From Chthoniobacter flavus (GTDB lineage: Bacteria; Verrucomicrobiota; Verrucomicrobiia; Chthoniobacterales; JACTMZ01): 46,831 nucleotides of DNA. This document shows positions 7,659-43,200 of the stretch, piece after piece. The position numbers and the translations under genes are program-made. A model generated the notes under the pieces. The model did not search any database, had not been told where the DNA came from, and saw only the letters and a list, made by a program, of their open reading frames with translations. The stretch's first letter is position 1, and each line of letters opens with the position of its first letter. The stretch covers positions 1 through 46,831 of the forward strand of contig CAMDUL010000023.1 of assembly GCA_945878135.1 (NCBI GenBank), given 5' to 3'.

Positions 7659-8699
7659 ATGGTCCAATCTCCCCGTCGCCGCGTGAATGCCTCTGCCCAC
7701 GGTTTCGGATCATCACCACGTCTGCGGGCCGCCGTTTGCGTCCGCCCCCAACACCGCCACCTCGTCTATCCGCCCGAGGAACTGGCCCGCGCCGCGGAGT
7801 GCGCGGAAATCCTCAACCCCCAGGGGGAACTCCCGGCCCAACTCTGGCCGTCGGTCGACGTCATCCTCGGCGGCTGGGGCATGCCCCGACTCGACACCGA
7901 ATTCCTTCGCCGAGCGCGCAATCTCCGCGCTGTTTTTTACGCCGCCGGCTCGGTGCGTTCGTTCATGCCGCCGGAGGCGTGGGCCCGCAACCTCACCCTG
8001 ACCACCGCCGCCCAGGCCAACTCCGAGACCACCGCGGAATTCACCCTCTCGCTGGTGCTATTCAGTCTCAAACACGGTTGGCATTTCGTGCGGCACCCGC
8101 GGGTCGCGTGGCGCGACGCCCATGCGCACCGCGATATTCCCGGACTCTACGGATCGCGCATCGGGCTCGTCTCCTTCGGCCGCGTGGCCCGGCGGCTCGC
8201 CGAGCTGCTCCGCAACTTGCCCGTCGAGGTGGTTTGCTGGGACCCGATCCAACCGGAAGAGGTCCTCCGTGAATACGGCGTGCGTTCGTGCGACCTGCAG
8301 ACCATCTTCCGCACCAGCCACGTCGTCAGCCTGCATGTTCCCTGGCTCCCGGAAACCGAGAACCTTGTGGACGCCGACCTCCTCGACTCCATGCAGCCGG
8401 GCGCCACGCTGATCAACACCAGCCGCGGCGCCGTGCTCGACGAGGACGCCCTCATCGAGACCCTCCGCCGCCGCCCCGAACTCACCGCGGTGCTCGACGT
8501 GACCCGCGAGGAACCGCCCGCCGCCGACTCTCCGCTCTACGAAATGCCCAACGTCGTCCTCACCCCGCACATCGCCGGCGCCTACGGTCCGGAATGCCAG
8601 CGCCTCGGCGCCTGCGCGATCGACGAACTTCTGCGTTACGCGCAGGGCGAACCGCTCCGGCACGCCCTCGGACGGGAACAAGCGGCCCTCATGGCCTGA
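7659..8699 (+). CDS. D-isomer-specific 2-hydroxyacid dehydrogenase
   Basis: 346 residues from ATG at 7659. A GTG at 7683 is an equally possible start, and frames further upstream run into the divergent LacI gene. The NAD-binding domain has GLVSFGRVARRLAELL, a variant of the G-x-G-x-x-G loop. The catalytic Arg-Glu-His triad is visible as NTSRGAVLDE, TREEPPAADSPLY and PHIAGAYGPE. Members reduce 2-keto acids or oxidise D-2-hydroxyacids; lines like this are often annotated as phosphoglycerate-dehydrogenase-like without evidence of that substrate. It is probably linked to the sugar/polyol set under the divergent LacI regulator. Confidence 0.85.
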   Translation: MVQSPRRRVNASAHGFGSSPRLRAAVCVRPQHRHLVYPPEELARAAECAEILNPQGELPAQLWPSVDVILGGWGMPRLDTEFLRRARNLRAVFYAAGSVRSFMPPEAWARNLTLTTAAQANSETTAEFTLSLVLFSLKHGWHFVRHPRVAWRDAHAHRDIPGLYGSRIGLVSFGRVARRLAELLRNLPVEVVCWDPIQPEEVLREYGVRSCDLQTIFRTSHVVSLHVPWLPETENLVDADLLDSMQPGATLINTSRGAVLDEDALIETLRRRPELTAVLDVTREEPPAADSPLYEMPNVVLTPHIAGAYGPECQRLGACAIDELLRYAQGEPLRHALGREQAALMA

Positions 8700-10131: not shown

Positions 10132-12105
10132 TCAATCCGTGGCAAAAATTTCTTTCAGCGCCTCCCACGCCGGCTTCGGCTTGCCCGCAAAATCGATCAC
10201 CGATGTGTTCGACGGACACGGGAAGCAGTCGTGCCCCATCCACACGATGAATCCCCCGCACCGCGGAAACCGCTCCTTGCACGCGCGCGCCGCGATGGCC
10301 AATCCCTCCGCCTGCTCGCGCCGCGTTTCGTCCACATAGGCGGCCAGCGCTTCCTCCGGCGGCAGGTGCGCGAATTTCGCGGCAAAGCGCTGGTCCTGCG
10401 TCCACCAGTTCGCCGCATGACGCCACAACGGGGTGTCCAGCGGCCACAACGGTTCCCCGTCCGCATGCCGGCGCAGCAACTCCAGATCCGCGCAGCCCGG
10501 CACGCCCACCTCGCTGCGGAAAAGCGCATCGTCCTTTGCCCAGTAATTCCGCCAGTCGTCCAGGTCCTTGAAATCCCCCAGTCCCCACGGCCCGTGCACA
10601 TGGTGATGCACGCCTTTCCCGAAATTCTCCCGCTTGCCGAGGAAACTCGGACCCGAGGGCGAGGTCGGCAGGCAGCGCCGCCCCGGGTCCTCCTCGGCCA
10701 CCACCTCCGCGAACGCCGCCAGGCACGGATGACTCTCGTCGCAGGGATGACGCTTCGACCAGTCGCCGTCCTCGTAGCCTTCCTGCAATTCGTTGCCGCC
10801 GCACCACATCAAGAGCGACGCGTGGTGCTGGCGCACGCGGACAAAACACCGCGCCACCTCGCGCAATTCATCGATGACCTGCTCGTCGCGCGGCGGGACG
10901 CTGTCGAGACCCGAAGACGAGAGCGGGAATTCCTGCCAGACGAGCAAGCCCGCGCGGTCGCAAGCGTCATAAAACTGCTCCGACTCCAGCGAAGCCCCGC
11001 CCCACACGCGCAGGAGATTGCAACCCATGTCGCGGTAAAGACCGACCAGCGAGTCGATCTCCTCCCGGGTCGCATCCTGATACGCCATCCTCGCCGGCGT
11101 CCAATTCACCCCCTGCAAAAACAAAGGCCGCCCGTTCACCACGCAAATCCAAGGACGCGCCCCCATTGGCGCACCCTCGCAAGCACGCCATTCGACCTGC
11201 TTGAACCCGACCGTGCGCGCAAAGCTCCGCATGACCGCACCCGCCGTATCGCGCACCACGATCTTCAAGTCATAAAGTGCCTGCGCTCCCGCTCCGTTGG
11301 GCCACCAGAGCTCCGGGGACGGGACATCGAACCGGAATTCATTCACCCCCGCCGTAGCCACGAACTTCTTTTCCACCCCGGCAGGGGCAGCCAGCCCGGC
11401 GGGCCGCGGTCTTTCAGTAGGACTCAACGAAATCCCCACCTCGCACCCTTCCGGCAATTCCATCCGCACCATCACCCGTGCCGTCCGCAAATCCGCCGCC
11501 AATTCCGTCCGCACCGCGGTCAACCGGACCGCATGCTCCTTCTTCGGCACCAGCGACAGCGCGCCCTTCGCCCCCGCCGGCACGAAGCGCGGACACCAAT
11601 CCCACGAGTAGTTGAACCGCGGCTTCAGCTCGCGCGTCTCCGAGGTGTAACCCACCTGCCCGTGCACCTCCGGCGGCGTGCCGAAGACAATGGCCAAGCG
11701 GCGCGGCCCCGTCTCTTCGCCCCACGCGGACGCCAGATCGATTTCCACCGGGCGGTGCGGACCGCGGAACGTGCCCGCGACGCGGCGATTGACCAGCACC
11801 CACCCCGCGTAGTCCAGCGACTCCGCCAAAAAGACCGGCGCCTCCGCCATCTCCGGCAACTCCGTTTCGAACATCCAATGCCGGTGCTCCGCCCACTCCA
11901 CCGCCCGCGAGTTCAAGCCATCGTGCCAATCGGGCAAAATGCCCGCCCGCCGCAAATTCTCCTGCACCGAGCCCGGCAAACGCCCCTCCAACGGCCCGAA
12001 CTCCGGCTCCACCCAGAACGTCGTCTCCGGCACCCGCGCATACTTCCACAGCAAAGGCCGCCAACCGGACAACTGCCAGCGGAGCTTGGACAAATCAAAA
12101 AGCAC
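10132..12105 (-). CDS. Glycoside hydrolase family 2, beta-mannosidase-like
   Basis: 657 residues from a GTG at 12105; an in-frame TAG lies five codons upstream (12116-12118), so no long N-terminal extension is possible. The N-terminal domain has the beta-mannosidase signature (LPGSVQENLRRAGILPDWHDGLN, then WAEHRHWMFE). The TIM barrel carries WCGGNE with the likely acid/base Glu439 and FRSEVGVPG with the likely nucleophile Glu532. There is no signal peptide, so a cytoplasmic exo-mannosidase is likely. It is shorter than usual beta-mannosidases (about 850 residues), mainly at the C-terminus. Upstream is a 14-bp palindrome (12127-12140) that could be an operator. Confidence 0.88.
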   Translation of the reverse strand: MLFDLSKLRWQLSGWRPLLWKYARVPETTFWVEPEFGPLEGRLPGSVQENLRRAGILPDWHDGLNSRAVEWAEHRHWMFETELPEMAEAPVFLAESLDYAGWVLVNRRVAGTFRGPHRPVEIDLASAWGEETGPRRLAIVFGTPPEVHGQVGYTSETRELKPRFNYSWDWCPRFVPAGAKGALSLVPKKEHAVRLTAVRTELAADLRTARVMVRMELPEGCEVGISLSPTERPRPAGLAAPAGVEKKFVATAGVNEFRFDVPSPELWWPNGAGAQALYDLKIVVRDTAGAVMRSFARTVGFKQVEWRACEGAPMGARPWICVVNGRPLFLQGVNWTPARMAYQDATREEIDSLVGLYRDMGCNLLRVWGGASLESEQFYDACDRAGLLVWQEFPLSSSGLDSVPPRDEQVIDELREVARCFVRVRQHHASLLMWCGGNELQEGYEDGDWSKRHPCDESHPCLAAFAEVVAEEDPGRRCLPTSPSGPSFLGKRENFGKGVHHHVHGPWGLGDFKDLDDWRNYWAKDDALFRSEVGVPGCADLELLRRHADGEPLWPLDTPLWRHAANWWTQDQRFAAKFAHLPPEEALAAYVDETRREQAEGLAIAARACKERFPRCGGFIVWMGHDCFPCPSNTSVIDFAGKPKPAWEALKEIFATD

Positions 12106-31756: not shown

Positions 31757-32760
31757 ACACCACCGAGCAAACGACGCCCCTTCTCCGCGTCCGCGGTTTG
31801 TGCAAGCACTTCCCCGTGCGCAGTCGCGGCTTTATCCGTCGCGTCACCGGGTGGATCCGCGCGGTGGATGACGTCAGCTTCGATCTGGCCCGCGGCGAAA
31901 CCCTCGGACTGGTCGGCGAAAGCGGGAGCGGCAAGACCACCTGCGCCCGCTCCATCCTGCGCGCCCTCTCCCCGACCGCCGGCCAGGCCGTCTTCCAATC
32001 AGCGTCGGGACCTGTCGACCTCGCGTCGCTGCCCGCGCACCGTCTCAAGCCGCTGCGCCGCGAGATGCAGATGATTTTCCAGGATCCGTTTTCCTCGCTC
32101 AACCCTCGCATGACCGCAGGCCAAATCGTGGCCGAACCCCTTGTCATCCACCGCCTCGCATCCGGTTCCACCCTCGACGACCGGGTGGCCGGGATGATGT
32201 CGCGCGTCGGACTCGACCCCGCCCATCGTCACCGCTATCCGCACGCGTTCAGCGGCGGACAGCGCCAGCGCATCGGTATCGCCCGCGCGCTCATCATGCG
32301 CCCTTCGCTTATCGTGGCCGACGAAGCGGTGTCCGCCCTCGACGTGTCGGTCCAGGCCCAGATCATCAACCTGCTGCGCGACCTGCGGGACGAACTCGGA
32401 CTGACCTCCATCTTCGTGGCCCACGACCTCGAAGTGGTCCGCCACCTCTGCGATCGTGTCGCCGTGATGTATGCCGGTCGCATCGTCGAGGAGGGTCCGG
32501 TGGAGGAAATCTTCGCCGATCCGCGCCACCCTTACACCCGCGCGCTGCTCGCCGCCGCCCCTTCGGCCGACCCCGACATCCCTCTGCCCCCGCCAGTCCC
32601 GGGCGAGACCTGCGACACCGGCAACTTGCCGGCAGGCTGCGCTTTTCATCCTCGATGTCCGGACTGCTTTGATCCTTGCCGGACGATTCGTCCGGAGCTG
32701 ACAAAAGCCGCGCCCGCACGACGCTTGGCCTGCCATTTGGCGTCCACCACTCTACGGTAA
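31753..32760 (+). CDS. ABC transporter ATP-binding protein, DppF/OppF-type
   Basis: 335 residues from GTG at 31753, overlapping the previous stop (GTGA). It begins [20 protein letters not shown], typical of the F subunit. Walker A is [10 protein letters not shown]-loop [11 protein letters not shown], signature FSGGQRQR and Walker [13 protein letters not shown] (Ala in place of Pro, common in F subunits); the switch is AHDLEVV. The oligopeptide C-terminal module has [14 protein letters not shown]. It completes the importer begun at 26201. Confidence 0.93.
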
Positions 32761-32768
32761 AGTCGCAG

Positions 32769-32784
32769 GACTTTACTGAATAGT
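32769..32784 (+). promoter_or_regulatory. 16-bp motif GACTTTACTGAATAGT upstream of the prepilin-like gene
   Basis: Third copy of the motif seen at 2768 and 12315. It lies 45 bp before the ATG at 32830 and only 8 bp after the stop of the ABC ATPase gene, so it probably marks the start of a new transcription unit. GTGAGG just before the ATG is a modest ribosome-binding site. Confidence 0.55.
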
Positions 32785-32829: not shown

Positions 32830-33648
32830 ATGAAATTTCGTCCCTCCGTCCGCCGGACCGGCTTCACTCTCATCGAACTGCTCGTGGTCATCGCCATCCT
32901 TGCCGTGCTCGCCGCGCTGGCCTTCCCGTCGTTCTCACGCATGCTGGGCCAAGGATCCGCGGCCAAAGTCACCTCCGGTCTGCGTCAGGCGGGTGCGGCG
33001 CTTTCCAACTACATCGGCGACAATGGCATGAAAATGCCGGCCACCGGCACAACCAGCGGGGGCGATCCGATTTCCTACGGGCTCCAACCGTCGACCCATC
33101 CCTGGTTCCGCATCATTTCACCCAACCACAAAGGCTCGGGTGCCTACAACGACCCCGGCACGCGGCTCTCCGCGCACCTCGCGCGCTACTGTGGCGTGAC
33201 CGGAGAGCCCAACACCGAGAGCAAATTGGACTTCCTCACCGATCCCCTCTGGGCGGCAGAGGTGAAGAAGAACGGCGGACCGACCGATGCGTATTGGATG
33301 CAACCGCCCTTTGTGCTGCGACCGCAAATCCACCGGAGCTCCTACCCGCAAATGGCCGCGGATCTGTATCCTTTCGGACGCGATGGGCAGCAAAGCTCCT
33401 CGCTCAAACCCGCCGATACCTACACCAAGATCGCTTCGTCCCTCCCGGCCAGCCGCACTTGGGCGATCATCCAATCGGACCGCGAATTGATCAAGGATTC
33501 AGGGGGCATGCTGACCAGCGGTATGGTCGGTGAAAAAGCCCCGGCCAAGCCGGTTCTCGCAAGCCACCGGCTCGCCTTGATGTTCGATTGGAGCGTGCAA
33601 CGCATCCCGGCCGGCACCGATCTCCGCCGTCCGTATCCCCGGAATTGA
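32830..33648 (+). CDS. Secreted protein with prepilin-type (type II pseudopilin) leader
   Basis: 272 residues. The leader MKFRPSVRRTG is followed by FTLIELLVVIAILAVLAALA, the classic cleavage site (after Gly11, Glu at +5) and hydrophobic helix. The globular part (SNYIGDNGMKMPATG, ASHRLALMFDWSVQRIPAG) fits the large family of lone prepilin-like proteins seen in Verrucomicrobiota and Planctomycetes. No pilin assembly or peptidase genes are nearby. Its role is unknown. It probably has its own promoter at 32769. Confidence 0.88.
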   Translation: MKFRPSVRRTGFTLIELLVVIAILAVLAALAFPSFSRMLGQGSAAKVTSGLRQAGAALSNYIGDNGMKMPATGTTSGGDPISYGLQPSTHPWFRIISPNHKGSGAYNDPGTRLSAHLARYCGVTGEPNTESKLDFLTDPLWAAEVKKNGGPTDAYWMQPPFVLRPQIHRSSYPQMAADLYPFGRDGQQSSSLKPADTYTKIASSLPASRTWAIIQSDRELIKDSGGMLTSGMVGEKAPAKPVLASHRLALMFDWSVQRIPAGTDLRRPYPRN

Positions 33649-33739: not shown

Positions 33740-34156
33740 ATGTCAGTGAACCAACTTGAAATCCCGCCGCTCCCGGACGTCGAGCGCGCCGCGGTTCCGG
33801 CGCCGAAGGCCCGCGAGATGAGCATACCCAGTCTCGAGGAAATTCCTCTCCATGTCAGGAACGTCGCGGCCCTGCGGGGCCTGGGGTTCACTTTCCGCCA
33901 GATCGGACGGACCTACGGCGTGACCCCGCAGGCGGCGTCGGTCATGCTGGCCCGGCAACGTGCGCTGCTCAAGGTCGAGGGGCGTCGCCCCGAGTTGGCC
34001 GGACTCTCGCCGCGCGCCGTCAACTGTCTCGGCCGTCTCGGCATCCATAATCGTGCCGGGGCCCGGGCCGTTCCGGATCTCGCGGCACGATTGGAAAACC
34101 AGCGCAATTGCGGACAAAAAACGATCCGCGAAATCCTCGACTGGGCCGCGGACTGA
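33740..34156 (+). CDS. Small HTH protein with RNA polymerase alpha-CTD-like domain (copy A)
   Basis: 138 residues. Residues about 39-77 are a helix-turn-helix of the sigma-region-4 type (VRNVAALRGLGFTFRQIGRT then GVTPQAASVMLARQRALLK). Residues about 84-136 match the C-terminal domain of RNA polymerase alpha: LSPRAVNCLGRLGI aligns with LTVRSANCLKAEAI of E. coli alpha, and NCGQKTIREI with NLGKKSLTEI. By that alignment the DNA-contact positions 265, 268, 269, 296, 298, 299 and 302 correspond to Arg92, Asn95, Cys96, Gly125, Lys127, Thr128 and Glu131. It is clearly a DNA-binding protein in the cytoplasm; its targets are unknown. It is convergent with lutC (30-bp gap) and paralogous to the gene at 41515-41937. 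Confidence 0.8.
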   Translation: MSVNQLEIPPLPDVERAAVPAPKAREMSIPSLEEIPLHVRNVAALRGLGFTFRQIGRTYGVTPQAASVMLARQRALLKVEGRRPELAGLSPRAVNCLGRLGIHNRAGARAVPDLAARLENQRNCGQKTIREILDWAAD

Positions 34157-39286: not shown

Positions 39287-41515
39287 ATGGCATCTCCCGA
39301 CACCCTCACGCACGTTACCAACCACTGGAAATCTGAAGAAGCCGGCAAGCTTTCCGGAGTGGACGAACTGGTCTACCGCTCGAACTGCCTTGGGCGCGAC
39401 CAACGCATCACCAACACGGGCGGAGGGAACACCTCGGCAAAAATCACCGAAACCGATCCGGTCACGGGCGACAAAGTCGAGGTCCTTTGGGTCAAGGGAT
39501 CGGGCGGTGACCTGCGCACCTCGAAGAGGGAAAACTTTTCCTCGCTCTACCAAGACAAACTGATCGGCCTGCAAAAAACCTACGCCGCGCGTGCGGACAA
39601 AGGTCTCAAGTCCCCGGCCGAGGACGAGATGGTCGGCATGTATGCGCACTGCACCTTCAATCTGAATCCGCGCCCGTCCTCGATCGACACGCCGCTGCAC
39701 AGCTTCATCCCCCACCCGCACGTCGATCACACACATCCCAATGCCGCGATCGCCGTGGCCGCGTGCGCGCGCAGCAAGGAAGCGACGCGCGAGATTTATG
39801 GCGACGAAGTCGTGCACCTGCCGTGGATGCGTCCGGGATTCGAACTCGGGCTCGCCATGCAGAAGGCATGCGCGGACCACCCCGAAGCCATCGGCTTCAT
39901 CATGGGGCAGCACGGCCTGATCAACTGGGCCAAGACCGGGCGCGAATGCTACGAGCGCTCGCTGCAACTCATCGACCGCGCCGCCGCCGCCATCGAGGAG
40001 CGTATTGCCGGCAAAGGAGGCGAAGAGAAAATTTTCGGCGGACAGCGACACGCGGCCCTTCCCGCGGAAACGCGGGCCAAAGTTTGGTGCCGTCTGCTTC
40101 CCTGGCTGCGCGGACAGGTCAGCCGCTCGCGGCGTTTCGTTGCCACCGTGCAGGACGACGGGAAAATCCTACGCTTTGTCGATTCGCGGGATGCCCCGCG
40201 CTTGGCCGGACTCGGCACCAGTTGTCCGGATCACTTCCTCCGCACGAAGATCAAACCCCTCTACGTTGCCCTCGATGCGGTGCCGTCCGGATTGGACGAC
40301 GCGCAACTGGATACCTTCGTCGGCAAACTCAAAGAGAAGCTCTCCGCCGGCCTCGATGCCTATCGTGCGGACTACGCCAAATATTACGAGGCCTGCAAAC
40401 ACCCCGATTCCCCCGCCATGCGCGATCCGAACCCGACCGTCGTGCTCATCCCCGGGCTCGGCATGGTCGCCTTCGGCAAGGACAAATCCGAGTCGCGAGT
40501 CACCGCCGAATTCTACAACTGCGCCGTCGAAGTGATGCGCGGCGCAGAGGCTCTCGGCGGCTACATTTCTCTGCCGCAGCAGGAAGCTTTCGACATCGAA
40601 TACTGGGCTCTGGAAGAGGCGAAGCTCCGCCGTATGCCGCCGGAAAAGGAAATGGCCGGGCGCGTGGTCATCGTCATCGGAGCGGGCAGCGGGATCGGAC
40701 GTGAAACCGCATTGCGGCTCGTCCGCGAAGGAGCGCAGCTTGTCTGCGCCGATTTGAATCTTGAGGCCGCGCAGAGAACGGCTGACGAAATCCTCGCCAA
40801 GACCGGCCTCGGAATCGGCGTGGCCGGCACGGGCATCTCCGGATGTGGTCCGGCCATCGCCGCGCAAGTGGACATCACCAGGCGCGAGAGCATCCGCGAA
40901 ATGCTCGACCGCGTCATCCTGGCCTACGGCGGATTCGACGCCATCGCGGTGACGGCGGGCATTTTTGTCCCCAGCGACACGAGCGGGCACATCCCGGACG
41001 ACAAATGGGCGCTGACCTACGCGATCAATGTCACGGGCAGCTACCTCGTGGCCGACGAGGCGGCGAAAATTTTCCGCGAACAAGGGCTTCGCGGCGCCAT
41101 CGTCCTCACGACCAGCGCCAATGCGGCCGTGGCCAAGAAGGGCAGCGTGGCCTACGACACTTCAAAAGCCGCGGCCAACCACCTTGTACGCGAGCTGGCC
41201 GTCGAACTTTCCCCGCTGGTGCGGGTCAATGGCGTGGCCCCGGCCACCGTGGTGCAAGGCAGTGCCATGTTCCCGCGCGACCGCGTCATCGGGTCGCTGG
41301 CCAAATACGGCATCGCCTACTCGGAAAACGAGAGCGACGAGTCGCTGACCGCAAAACTCGCCCAATTCTACGCCGATCGCACGCTGACCAAGGCGCCGAT
41401 CACTCCGGCCGACCAGGCCGAGGCCTATTTCCTTCTCCTCTCCGACCGTCTTTCCAAAACCAACGGTCAGATTGTCACGGTCGACGGAGGTCTGGTCGAA
41501 GCATTCCTGCGCTAA
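39287..41515 (+). CDS. rhaEW: Fused rhamnulose-1-phosphate aldolase / lactaldehyde dehydrogenase
   Basis: 742 residues. Residues 1 to about 440 are a class-II aldolase domain: NTGGGNTSAK, VLWVKGSGGDL, then zinc ligands in HPHVDHTHPNAA and MGQHGLINW. About 455-742 is a short-chain dehydrogenase with GAGSGIG (465-471) and the Tyr623-x-x-x-Lys627 pair in VAYDTSKAAAN, ending NGQIVTVDGG. The fusion is known as RhaEW (YuxG in Bacillus): it splits rhamnulose-1-phosphate into DHAP and L-lactaldehyde and oxidises the latter to L-lactate. It is the first plus-strand gene of the divergent rhamnose cluster. Its TAA stop overlaps the ATG of the next gene by one base. Confidence 0.93.
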   Translation: MASPDTLTHVTNHWKSEEAGKLSGVDELVYRSNCLGRDQRITNTGGGNTSAKITETDPVTGDKVEVLWVKGSGGDLRTSKRENFSSLYQDKLIGLQKTYAARADKGLKSPAEDEMVGMYAHCTFNLNPRPSSIDTPLHSFIPHPHVDHTHPNAAIAVAACARSKEATREIYGDEVVHLPWMRPGFELGLAMQKACADHPEAIGFIMGQHGLINWAKTGRECYERSLQLIDRAAAAIEERIAGKGGEEKIFGGQRHAALPAETRAKVWCRLLPWLRGQVSRSRRFVATVQDDGKILRFVDSRDAPRLAGLGTSCPDHFLRTKIKPLYVALDAVPSGLDDAQLDTFVGKLKEKLSAGLDAYRADYAKYYEACKHPDSPAMRDPNPTVVLIPGLGMVAFGKDKSESRVTAEFYNCAVEVMRGAEALGGYISLPQQEAFDIEYWALEEAKLRRMPPEKEMAGRVVIVIGAGSGIGRETALRLVREGAQLVCADLNLEAAQRTADEILAKTGLGIGVAGTGISGCGPAIAAQVDITRRESIREMLDRVILAYGGFDAIAVTAGIFVPSDTSGHIPDDKWALTYAINVTGSYLVADEAAKIFREQGLRGAIVLTTSANAAVAKKGSVAYDTSKAAANHLVRELAVELSPLVRVNGVAPATVVQGSAMFPRDRVIGSLAKYGIAYSENESDESLTAKLAQFYADRTLTKAPITPADQAEAYFLLLSDRLSKTNGQIVTVDGGLVEAFLR

Positions 41516-41937
41516 TGAGCACTTTCCACCACCAATCCACCACCATGCACCATCAAACCGCAGACTTGCCGGTCTCCACGACGGGCTCACCTTCCAACCA
41601 CCTCGATGCCGTGCCGCAACGGGTCCGCGAGATCGCCATGTTGCGCGGGCTCGGCTACTCGTTCCGGCAGATCGCCCAGGAATTCAGCGTTACCCCGCAG
41701 GCCGTCTCGCTCATGCTGTCCCGCCACCGGAAGACGCTGAAATCACTGCGCGGAGCTTTCGAGTTGAACAATCTCTCGGCCCGCGCCGTCAATGCCCTCG
41801 GGCGCCACGGCATCCGCACCCGCGAGGAAGCGCGCCGCCAGAGCGTGCTCGAAATGCTCAAGAATGAACGGAACTGCGGACGGAAAACGCTCGGTGAAAT
41901 CGAGCAGTGGCTGGACGGCGGCAACGGACAATCCTAA
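41515..41937 (+). CDS. Small HTH protein with RNA polymerase alpha-CTD-like domain (copy B)
   Basis: 140 residues from ATG at 41515 (TAATG overlap with rhaEW); an internal ATG at 41545 is possible. The N-terminal 30 residues are His/Ser/Thr-rich and look disordered. Residues about 36-76 form a sigma-region-4-like HTH (VREIAMLRGLGYSFRQIAQE then FSVTPQAVSLMLSRHRKTLK). About 82-132 resemble alpha-CTD: LSARAVNALGRHGI and NCGRKTLGEI. The contact positions correspond to Arg90, Asn93, Ala94, Gly122, Lys124, Thr125 and Glu128. About half of the residues match copy A (33740-34156) with one gap. Location between rhaEW and the isomerase gene shows it is expressed with rhamnose catabolism. Confidence 0.82.
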   Translation: MSTFHHQSTTMHHQTADLPVSTTGSPSNHLDAVPQRVREIAMLRGLGYSFRQIAQEFSVTPQAVSLMLSRHRKTLKSLRGAFELNNLSARAVNALGRHGIRTREEARRQSVLEMLKNERNCGRKTLGEIEQWLDGGNGQS

Positions 41938-41946
41938 AAACCCGTT

Positions 41947-43200
41947 ATGCCCTCACCTTACGAGACAGCGCGCGATGCCTACGCCGCGCTCGGCGTGGAT
42001 GCCGAAAAAGCCCTTCAAGTCCTCGCCCGACATCCGATCTCGGTCCATTGCTGGCAGGGCGACGACGTCGGCGGCTTCGAATCCGCCTCCGCCGGCGATC
42101 CGGGCGGCGGCCTCGCCGTGACCGGCAACTATCCCGGTCGCGCCCGCACGCCGGAGGAATTGCGCGCGGACCTCGACAAAGTTTTTTCCCTCGTCCCCGG
42201 CAAGCACCGCCTCAACCTCCACGCCTTCTATCTCGAGACTGGCGGCCAAAAAGTCGACCGCGACCAGATCGAGACGAAGCATTTTCAAGGCTGGATCGAT
42301 TGGGCCAAGTCGCAGGGCCTGGGCATGGACTTCAACCCGACCTGCTTCGCCCACCCGAAGGCCGCCGACGGCTTCACCCTCGCGCACGGCGACCAAGGCA
42401 TCCGCGAGTTCTGGATCGAGCACGCCAAACGCTGCCGCAAGATCGGTGCGGACATCGGACGCGCCCTCGGCTCGACCTGCGTGGTCAATGTCTGGATCCC
42501 CGACGGCTACAAGGACCTGCCGGTCGACCGCGTGGCCCCGCGCCGCCGCCTCCTCGAATCGCTCGATGCCATCTTCGCGGAAAAACTCCCCGCCCAAGAC
42601 GAGATCGACGCCGTGGAGTGCAAACTTTTCGGCATCGGCTCGGAAAGCTACGTCGCCGGCTCGCATGAATTCTATCTCGGCTACGCCGTCTCGCGGCAGA
42701 AAGCCGTCTGCCTGGACGCCGGCCATTTCCATCCCACCGAAACCCTCGCCGACAAAATCTCGTCCGTCCTCCTCTTCGTCCCGCGTTTGCTCCTCCACGT
42801 CAGCCGCGGTGTGCGCTGGGACAGCGACCACGTGGTACTCCTCGACGACCCGACGCGCGCGGTCATGGAGGAATTGGTCCGCGGCGATTTCCTCGGCCGC
42901 ACCAGCATCGGCCTCGACTACTTCGACGCCAGCATCAACCGCGTGGCCGCCTGGGTCGTCGGCATCCGCGCCACCCAGAAAGCCCTCCTCCTCGCCCTGC
43001 TCGAGCCTTCGAAGCAACTGCGCGAAGCGGAGGACAACGGCAACCTCACAGCCCGCCTCGCCCTGCTCGAAGAAGCCAAGTCCCTCCCGTGGGGCGCCGT
43101 TTGGGACGAATTTTGCCGCCGTAACAACGTACCCGTCGGTGCCGCCTGGCTGTCCGAAGCGGAGGCCTACGGGCAAGAGACGGCTCGCCTCCGAAGCTAA
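41947..43200 (+). CDS. rhaA: L-rhamnose isomerase
   Basis: 417 residues, close to the 419 of E. coli RhaA. Family motifs are [78 protein letters not shown] and [12 protein letters not shown] (metal-site Glu, Asp and His residues). It converts L-rhamnose to L-rhamnulose in the cytoplasm, the first step feeding RhaB. It follows the copy-B regulator by 9 bp, so rhaEW, the small regulator and the isomerase form one operon. Confidence 0.95.

Follow-up and report, generated by a model that had tools for sequence, protein, structure and literature searches.

The described folds closest to the protein considered here are the C-terminal domain of the RNA polymerase alpha subunit (alpha-CTD; PF03118) and region 4 of sigma-70 factors (PF08281/PF04545), a tri-helical helix-turn-helix (HTH). 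In E. coli alpha numbering we take R265, N268, G296, K298, S299 and E302 to be the UP-element DNA contacts, which agrees with the spacing of the motif, and E261 to be the sigma-contact residue, with D259 and position 258 nearby in this determinant; R584, E585, R588 and Q589 of E. coli sigma70 contact the -35 element. Within the window, the whole stretch of 46,831 nucleotides of Chthoniobacter flavus DNA that was analysed, an open reading frame with an ATG start on the forward strand (33740-34156) encodes a protein of 138 amino acids, termed copy A, in which a sigma-4-like HTH (residues 37-81, with helices at 37-47, 52-59 and 63-81; 33848-33982, forward strand) is followed by an alpha-CTD-like domain (residues 84-137; 33989-34150, forward strand). 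The AlphaFold2 model of the whole protein shows this HTH and, behind it, an alpha-CTD-like domain of four helices (mean pLDDT 82, and 78-95 per 10-residue block from residue 31 onward), the relative placement of the two being unreliable because the pTM is 0.59. A Foldseek search of the PDB with the whole model gave nothing at E≤0.001, the lowest E-values belonging to poorly fitting TetR-like proteins, and promoter, terminator and Rfam scans around the gene gave nothing above chance.

The second half of copy A had been aligned to the alpha-CTD in the initial annotation, and both profile and structure comparisons bear this out. Residues 88-134 passed the gathering score of Pfam RNA_pol_A_CTD (24.7 vs 23.8 bits, E 1.9e-5), and when residues 81-138 were modelled alone (pLDDT 93) nine of the ten top PDB matches were RNA polymerase entries, the best of which, 7vpd_S, superposed at 1.7 Å with 39% identity and a probability of 1.00, with Foldseek E-values that were all at least 0.099, none reaching 0.001. 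One of the nine, 6xas_K, was poorly fitted (14.1 Å), and the tenth match was a chain of a RAD51 complex. The alpha subunit is named in some of the PDB titles, which include complexes of Zur, GlnR and RpaA with RNA polymerase, and was inferred for the remaining chains. A phmmer search of PDB sequences with copy A gave a weak best match to alpha (E 0.65), and a profile of the family alignment (A1; 25 rows from 29 loci, after exclusion of the genome's own RpoA, L008, the N-terminally truncated L007 and L023, and L017, cut by a contig end) retrieved PDB chains of the alpha-CTD at E 5.5e-6. All 16 family proteins scanned with Pfam, i.e. both window copies and 14 of the 15 genome-contig loci (the contig-end copy L043 being left out), matched RNA_pol_A_CTD at E≤0.01 (best 1.5e-7). 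A generic helix-hairpin-helix in place of an alpha-CTD is ruled out by the Pfam and Foldseek results, HHH_5 being matched by one of the 16. In NCBIfam, copy B, the second family member in the window, matched RpoA at 7.6e-7 and sigma-70/ECF region 4 at 6.7e-5, both below the curated cut-offs, and its C-terminal half weakly resembled the hypothetical protein PRK07758/NF005841 (E 0.018; 15.3 bits vs a cut-off of 115).

The family thus shares with the alpha-CTD both the fold and the DNA-contact residues. Copy A carries Arg92, Asn95, Cys96, Gly125, Lys127 and Thr128, all six of the UP-element contact equivalents that had been listed for it, and across the alignment the equivalents of R265 (25/25), N268 (24/25), G296 (25/25), K298 (24/25), S299 (as T, 25/25) and E302 (25/25) are conserved. 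Unlike RNA polymerase alpha, however, the family lacks the N-terminal assembly domain, RpoA models matching residues 88-134 only of the 138 in copy A, and RpoA itself is encoded elsewhere in the genome (C14:18281). In place of C269 most members have Ala (18/25; Cys only in copy A), Trp135 is invariant, and the acid at 261 has been lost in all but two of the 25 members.

The first half had been said to resemble the sigma domain that reads the -35 element, a likeness which is evident in the family and faint in copy A alone. Sigma70_r4_2 was matched by 13 of the 16 scanned proteins (best 1e-7), copy A not being among them at E 0.01; copy A itself matched no sigma family in Pfam even at E 10 and gave a weak sigma signal in NCBIfam (TIGR02937, E 0.17), the GH65-locus copy of genome G006 reaching 6.2e-6 for sigma-70/ECF, below the curated cut-off. 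In the full copy A model the HTH superposed on SigD domain 4 (3vep) at 1.2 Å over 49-53 columns (probability 0.98-0.99, E above 1). Other HTH families also match, HTH_38 being found in seven of the 16 proteins and the copy A HTH fitting NarL at 1.7 Å. The family shares the tri-helical HTH with sigma-70 region 4, but differs from sigma-70 factors in having no region 2 (no Pfam match in copy A or the 16 proteins, which are too short for it) and in the residues that would read the -35 element, the equivalents of R584, E585, R588 and Q589 being P (24 of 25), Q (24), S (24) and L (19) or V (3). With these replacements, a -35-reading role for the HTH is not supported. Among copies in unrelated operons the recognition helix is near-invariant, with P63, Q64, A65, S67, L70 and R72 each present in 24 of 25 members.

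Full-length members were seen in a single genus of Chthoniobacterales. The C. flavus genome gave eight profile matches, comprising six full copies, one N-terminally truncated copy and RpoA, and among 57 related genomes searched the family was found in ten, with up to seven copies per genome, all ten belonging to the 11 genomes of this genus; the eleventh (G009), without a match, is 65% complete. Across the order, 82 of 213 genomes matched the A1 profile at 1e-5, the ten genus genomes at ≤1.2e-35 and the other 72 at ≥2.9e-7, so that the 202 genomes outside the genus give far weaker matches at best. Those read individually proved to be alpha-CTDs in RpoA-length frames (L046-L049, L086 and L087), RpoA at contig ends (G045 and G449) or, in G461, an ECF sigma factor with the match running across a stop. 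In the phylum, five of 288 genomes matched at 1e-6, and the four outside the genus were again alpha-CTDs in RpoA-length frames. A search of genome contigs with copy A alone found no relative, and the same search with A1 found 15 loci, whose records all bear titles of MAGs from Verrucomicrobia, Chthoniobacterales or Chthoniobacter flavus. No family member was found in plasmid records at 1e-3 or in PADLOC at 0.01, and a phage origin was rejected, the single match in phage records (MT839913) being an RpoA-like protein. Partial copies without most of the HTH occur at G000:C24:43566-43733 (L058), G010:C2:1834-2028, G003:C6:108591-108734 and G010:C1:229325-229511, and may be decayed genes or alpha-CTD-only proteins.

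The pairing of sigma region 4 with an alpha-CTD extends further. RNA_pol_A_CTD is present in 191 of 194 phylum genomes, 11 of which, besides that of C. flavus, have two to four matches. Of the 14 extra matches in these 11 genomes, 12 were read, and none was by eye a short HTH and alpha-CTD protein. Two genomes from one family elsewhere in the phylum, G100 and G178, encode sigma-70 factors ending in an alpha-CTD (L123, G100:C1, 463-1713; L124, G178:C27, 1474-2751, reverse strand), in which regions 1.2, 2, 3 and 4 and the C-terminal alpha-CTD all exceed the Pfam cut-offs. As in the family, Sigma70_r4 is followed by RNA_pol_A_CTD in one chain, but these are complete sigma factors in frames of 417 and 426 amino acids, with region 4 and the alpha-CTD set approximately 72-90 residues apart, and their region 4 retains a T-R-E-R-V-R-Q recognition helix, unlike the family. 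Others among the matches read were DNA ligase-like repeats or other long frames. In G115:C8, three alpha-CTD-like repeats (L127, L134 and L136, of which one was read) lie in one long frame. On these 12 matches, the short HTH and alpha-CTD family is seen in one genus only and the sigma-4 and alpha-CTD pairing is wider.

A viral-contig protein (L072:4452-5276; IMGVR_UViG_3300028482_000010) likewise unites Sigma70_r4 with RNA_pol_A_CTD in a single chain, each scoring above its cut-off, and differs from the family in its 275-aa frame, its spacing of approximately 55 residues between domains and an extra N-terminal part; it had no relatives in phage or plasmid records and matched only itself among viral contigs. 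Large viral contigs also encode a small protein (L073-L075:4737-5183) in which RNA_pol_A_CTD (E 1.8e-10 in L073) was the sole Pfam match at a threshold of 0.001. The initial annotation's remark that no described family has this pair of domains therefore needs qualifying, since L072, L123 and L124 carry it, and it stands in so far as no paper on them was found. Among the matches listed, judged by title or the start of the abstract, no paper dealt with the family or with a sigma and alpha-CTD fusion, which is weak evidence of absence because subscription papers lie mostly outside the search.

Surroundings were examined for 24 of 26 copies (the 25 A1 rows plus the G002 copy; L021 and L029 left out), with genes called by our own script, Pfam applied to 28 neighbours and the others named by likeness to scanned orthologues. 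Fourteen of the 24 loci adjoin sugar-catabolism genes, a raw count to be read against the sugar specialisation of the lineage. Five of these are in a rhamnose locus or the neighbouring microcompartment operon, four follow a GH3 gene, three follow GH65 and HAD phosphatase genes, one is of uronate type and one adjoins galactokinase. At several loci the family gene overlaps or abuts the preceding gene. Copy B (41515-41937, forward strand; profile search and gene call) lies inside a rhamnose operon, its ATG sharing one base with the stop of the preceding gene, a start taken from the gene caller and conserved in G002. That preceding gene (39287-41515, forward strand; Pfam Aldolase_II and adh_short) encodes a fusion of a class II aldolase and a short-chain dehydrogenase, by type a putative rhamnulose-1-phosphate aldolase/lactaldehyde dehydrogenase, and an L-rhamnose isomerase gene follows copy B (41947-43200, forward strand; Pfam RhaA, E 8.1e-199). 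A family member is also the first gene of a microcompartment operon (L061:6491-12399; PTAC and BMC shell, genes named by Pfam and sequence likeness) adjoined by a DeoR gene and rhamnulokinase and lut-like genes. Microcompartments with fucose/rhamnose genes are described for freshwater Verrucomicrobia (PMC5615132).

None of the remaining ten loci has a sugar-catabolism gene as its direct neighbour. A prepilin-like gene precedes four of these copies, including copy A, although one such gene had no Pfam match at 1e-5 and one was named by likeness. The gene before copy A (32830-33648, forward strand; Pfam N_methyl) carries the prepilin N-terminal methylation motif and ends 91 bases before copy A begins. 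The two nearest relatives of copy A lie behind an N_methyl/DUF1559 gene in one case and a gene of similar appearance in the other. One further copy follows CstA, one is divergent from a LacI-type gene, three lie beside autotransporter-like, GH5-like or other genes, and the G004:C52 copy has an apparently non-sugar setting (n=1). Upstream of the prepilin-like gene preceding copy A, at the end of an ABC transporter gene, is an inverted repeat, GTAAAGTC-GCAG-GACTTTAC (32757-32776 of the window).

The family is under purifying selection, dN/dS being 0.18-0.40 in all nine family-gene pairs in conserved context (pairs that share members, with dS >1 in four). Together with the comparison of copy A and its nearest paralogue (dN 0.43, dS 1.84), these values identify copy A as a real gene. 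In the family tree, where three of 22 inner branches are well supported, copy A joins two other prepilin-linked copies with support of 96/98.

Our preferred reading, to which we give a probability of roughly 55%, is that the family comprises sensor-less, local DNA-binding transcription regulators that would read a two-part site, many of them from within their own operon. The domains, their conserved contact residues, the purifying selection and the placing within operons are observed, and DNA binding at a two-part site, like the direction of regulation, is inferred. The HTH would recognise a specific site in the major groove, and the alpha-CTD-like domain would occupy the adjacent minor groove via its R265/N268/G296/K298/S299/E302-type surface. 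Many copies would be made inside the operon that they regulate, giving local feedback on the sugar locus, with sugar sensing left to a neighbouring DeoR, AraC, GntR/LacI-type or two-component regulator. As to the direction of regulation, repression or damping is somewhat likelier than activation because the main sigma-touching residue of the alpha-CTD is gone. Against this reading stand the failure to find a motif common to the loci, the sugar specialisation of the lineage as a whole, the ten loci with other neighbours and the acid kept at position 258, which leaves room for some sigma contact. The suggestion that copy A is a promoter mimic finds no support in its literal sense, because position 261 is non-acidic in 23 of 25 members and the -35-reading residues are replaced.

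The loss of the acid at 261 also counts against an alternative in which the proteins are directed at RNA polymerase, as activators or decoys, and either supply the promoter with an additional alpha-CTD in contact with sigma region 4 or with activators, or compete with the real alpha-CTD. The homology to the alpha-CTD is clear, L123 and L124 indicate that within the same phylum the module has been reused in the polymerase machinery, the PDB matches include the polymerase complexes of Zur, GlnR and RpaA, and some sigma contact is possible because an acid is kept at the alpha D258 position in 21 of 25 members (E in 18, D in 3). The D259 position, however, is L in 22 of 25, while E stands at 259 as well as 261 in the RpoA of this genome, and we consider this alternative unlikely.

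Local action may also be set against a global network over the sugar loci, with all paralogues binding one common site, as the almost invariant recognition helix might lead one to expect. We regard this as quite improbable, for no shared motif was found among 13 and 14 family-operon upstream regions and the conserved motifs are locus-specific. Four of five motif model types scored within their Markov controls; the 16-wide non-palindromic model reached 48.0 vs controls of up to 46.6, which is no evidence of a motif because the search was started 80 times on the real set and 40 times on each of the four Markov controls. The best real word was clearly beaten in five of 20 label permutations, and no 4+4 dyad reached four of the upstream regions. 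Among the locus-specific motifs, TATAGTCCGnAnTGACTAG lies between genes at three places in a beta-glucan locus (L054:2541-2558, 8426-8443 and 11165-11182; G000:C1) and recurs in G004, G006 and G010; its 20-base form has three sites in its own genome at ≤3 mismatches, all in that locus, and the reversed control none. CTTTAGGTAAAG occurs at L057:1998 and 10165 and at G000:C24:36603, in a single sugar locus that also has a GntR/Peripla_BP regulator next to the motif, its three sites all falling within 17 kb of C24 and its control also giving three. Each of the two loci contains another regulator, and the motifs could just as well be sites of these two-component or GntR-type neighbours as of the family proteins. 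A resemblance of a stretch of DNA ahead of copy A to the beta-glucan site was discarded, being no commoner than for the reversed-pattern control (15 vs 20 sites).

Just as doubtful as the global network is a further reading, in which genus-specific mini-regulators assembled from sigma-4-like and alpha-CTD modules, possibly cut down from an alpha-CTD-bearing sigma factor like those found elsewhere in the phylum, would act as spare holoenzyme pieces that occupy or supplement the UP/-35 region and so set the strength of each sugar operon. That the genes hitch-hike, spreading through operons and decaying there with little use in regulation, would account for the partial copies in G000, G003 and G010 and the patchy copy number, but is very improbable given the purifying selection and the operon positions kept across genomes by the rhamnose, GH3 and GH65 copies.

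On the preferred reading of two-part, local DNA binding, the family is probably a set of local gene regulators of a hitherto unstudied kind. If this is true, the alpha-CTD, normally tethered to the polymerase, would have found a second use in a free-standing regulator, as the other half of its DNA-reading apparatus, and in a lake bacterium copies of such a regulator would have come to serve many sugar loci. Taken together with the sigma factors that end in an alpha-CTD, the family suggests that the pairing arose, or was kept, more than once, and through it one may ask whether a bipartite, UP-like mode of recognition can operate away from RNA polymerase.
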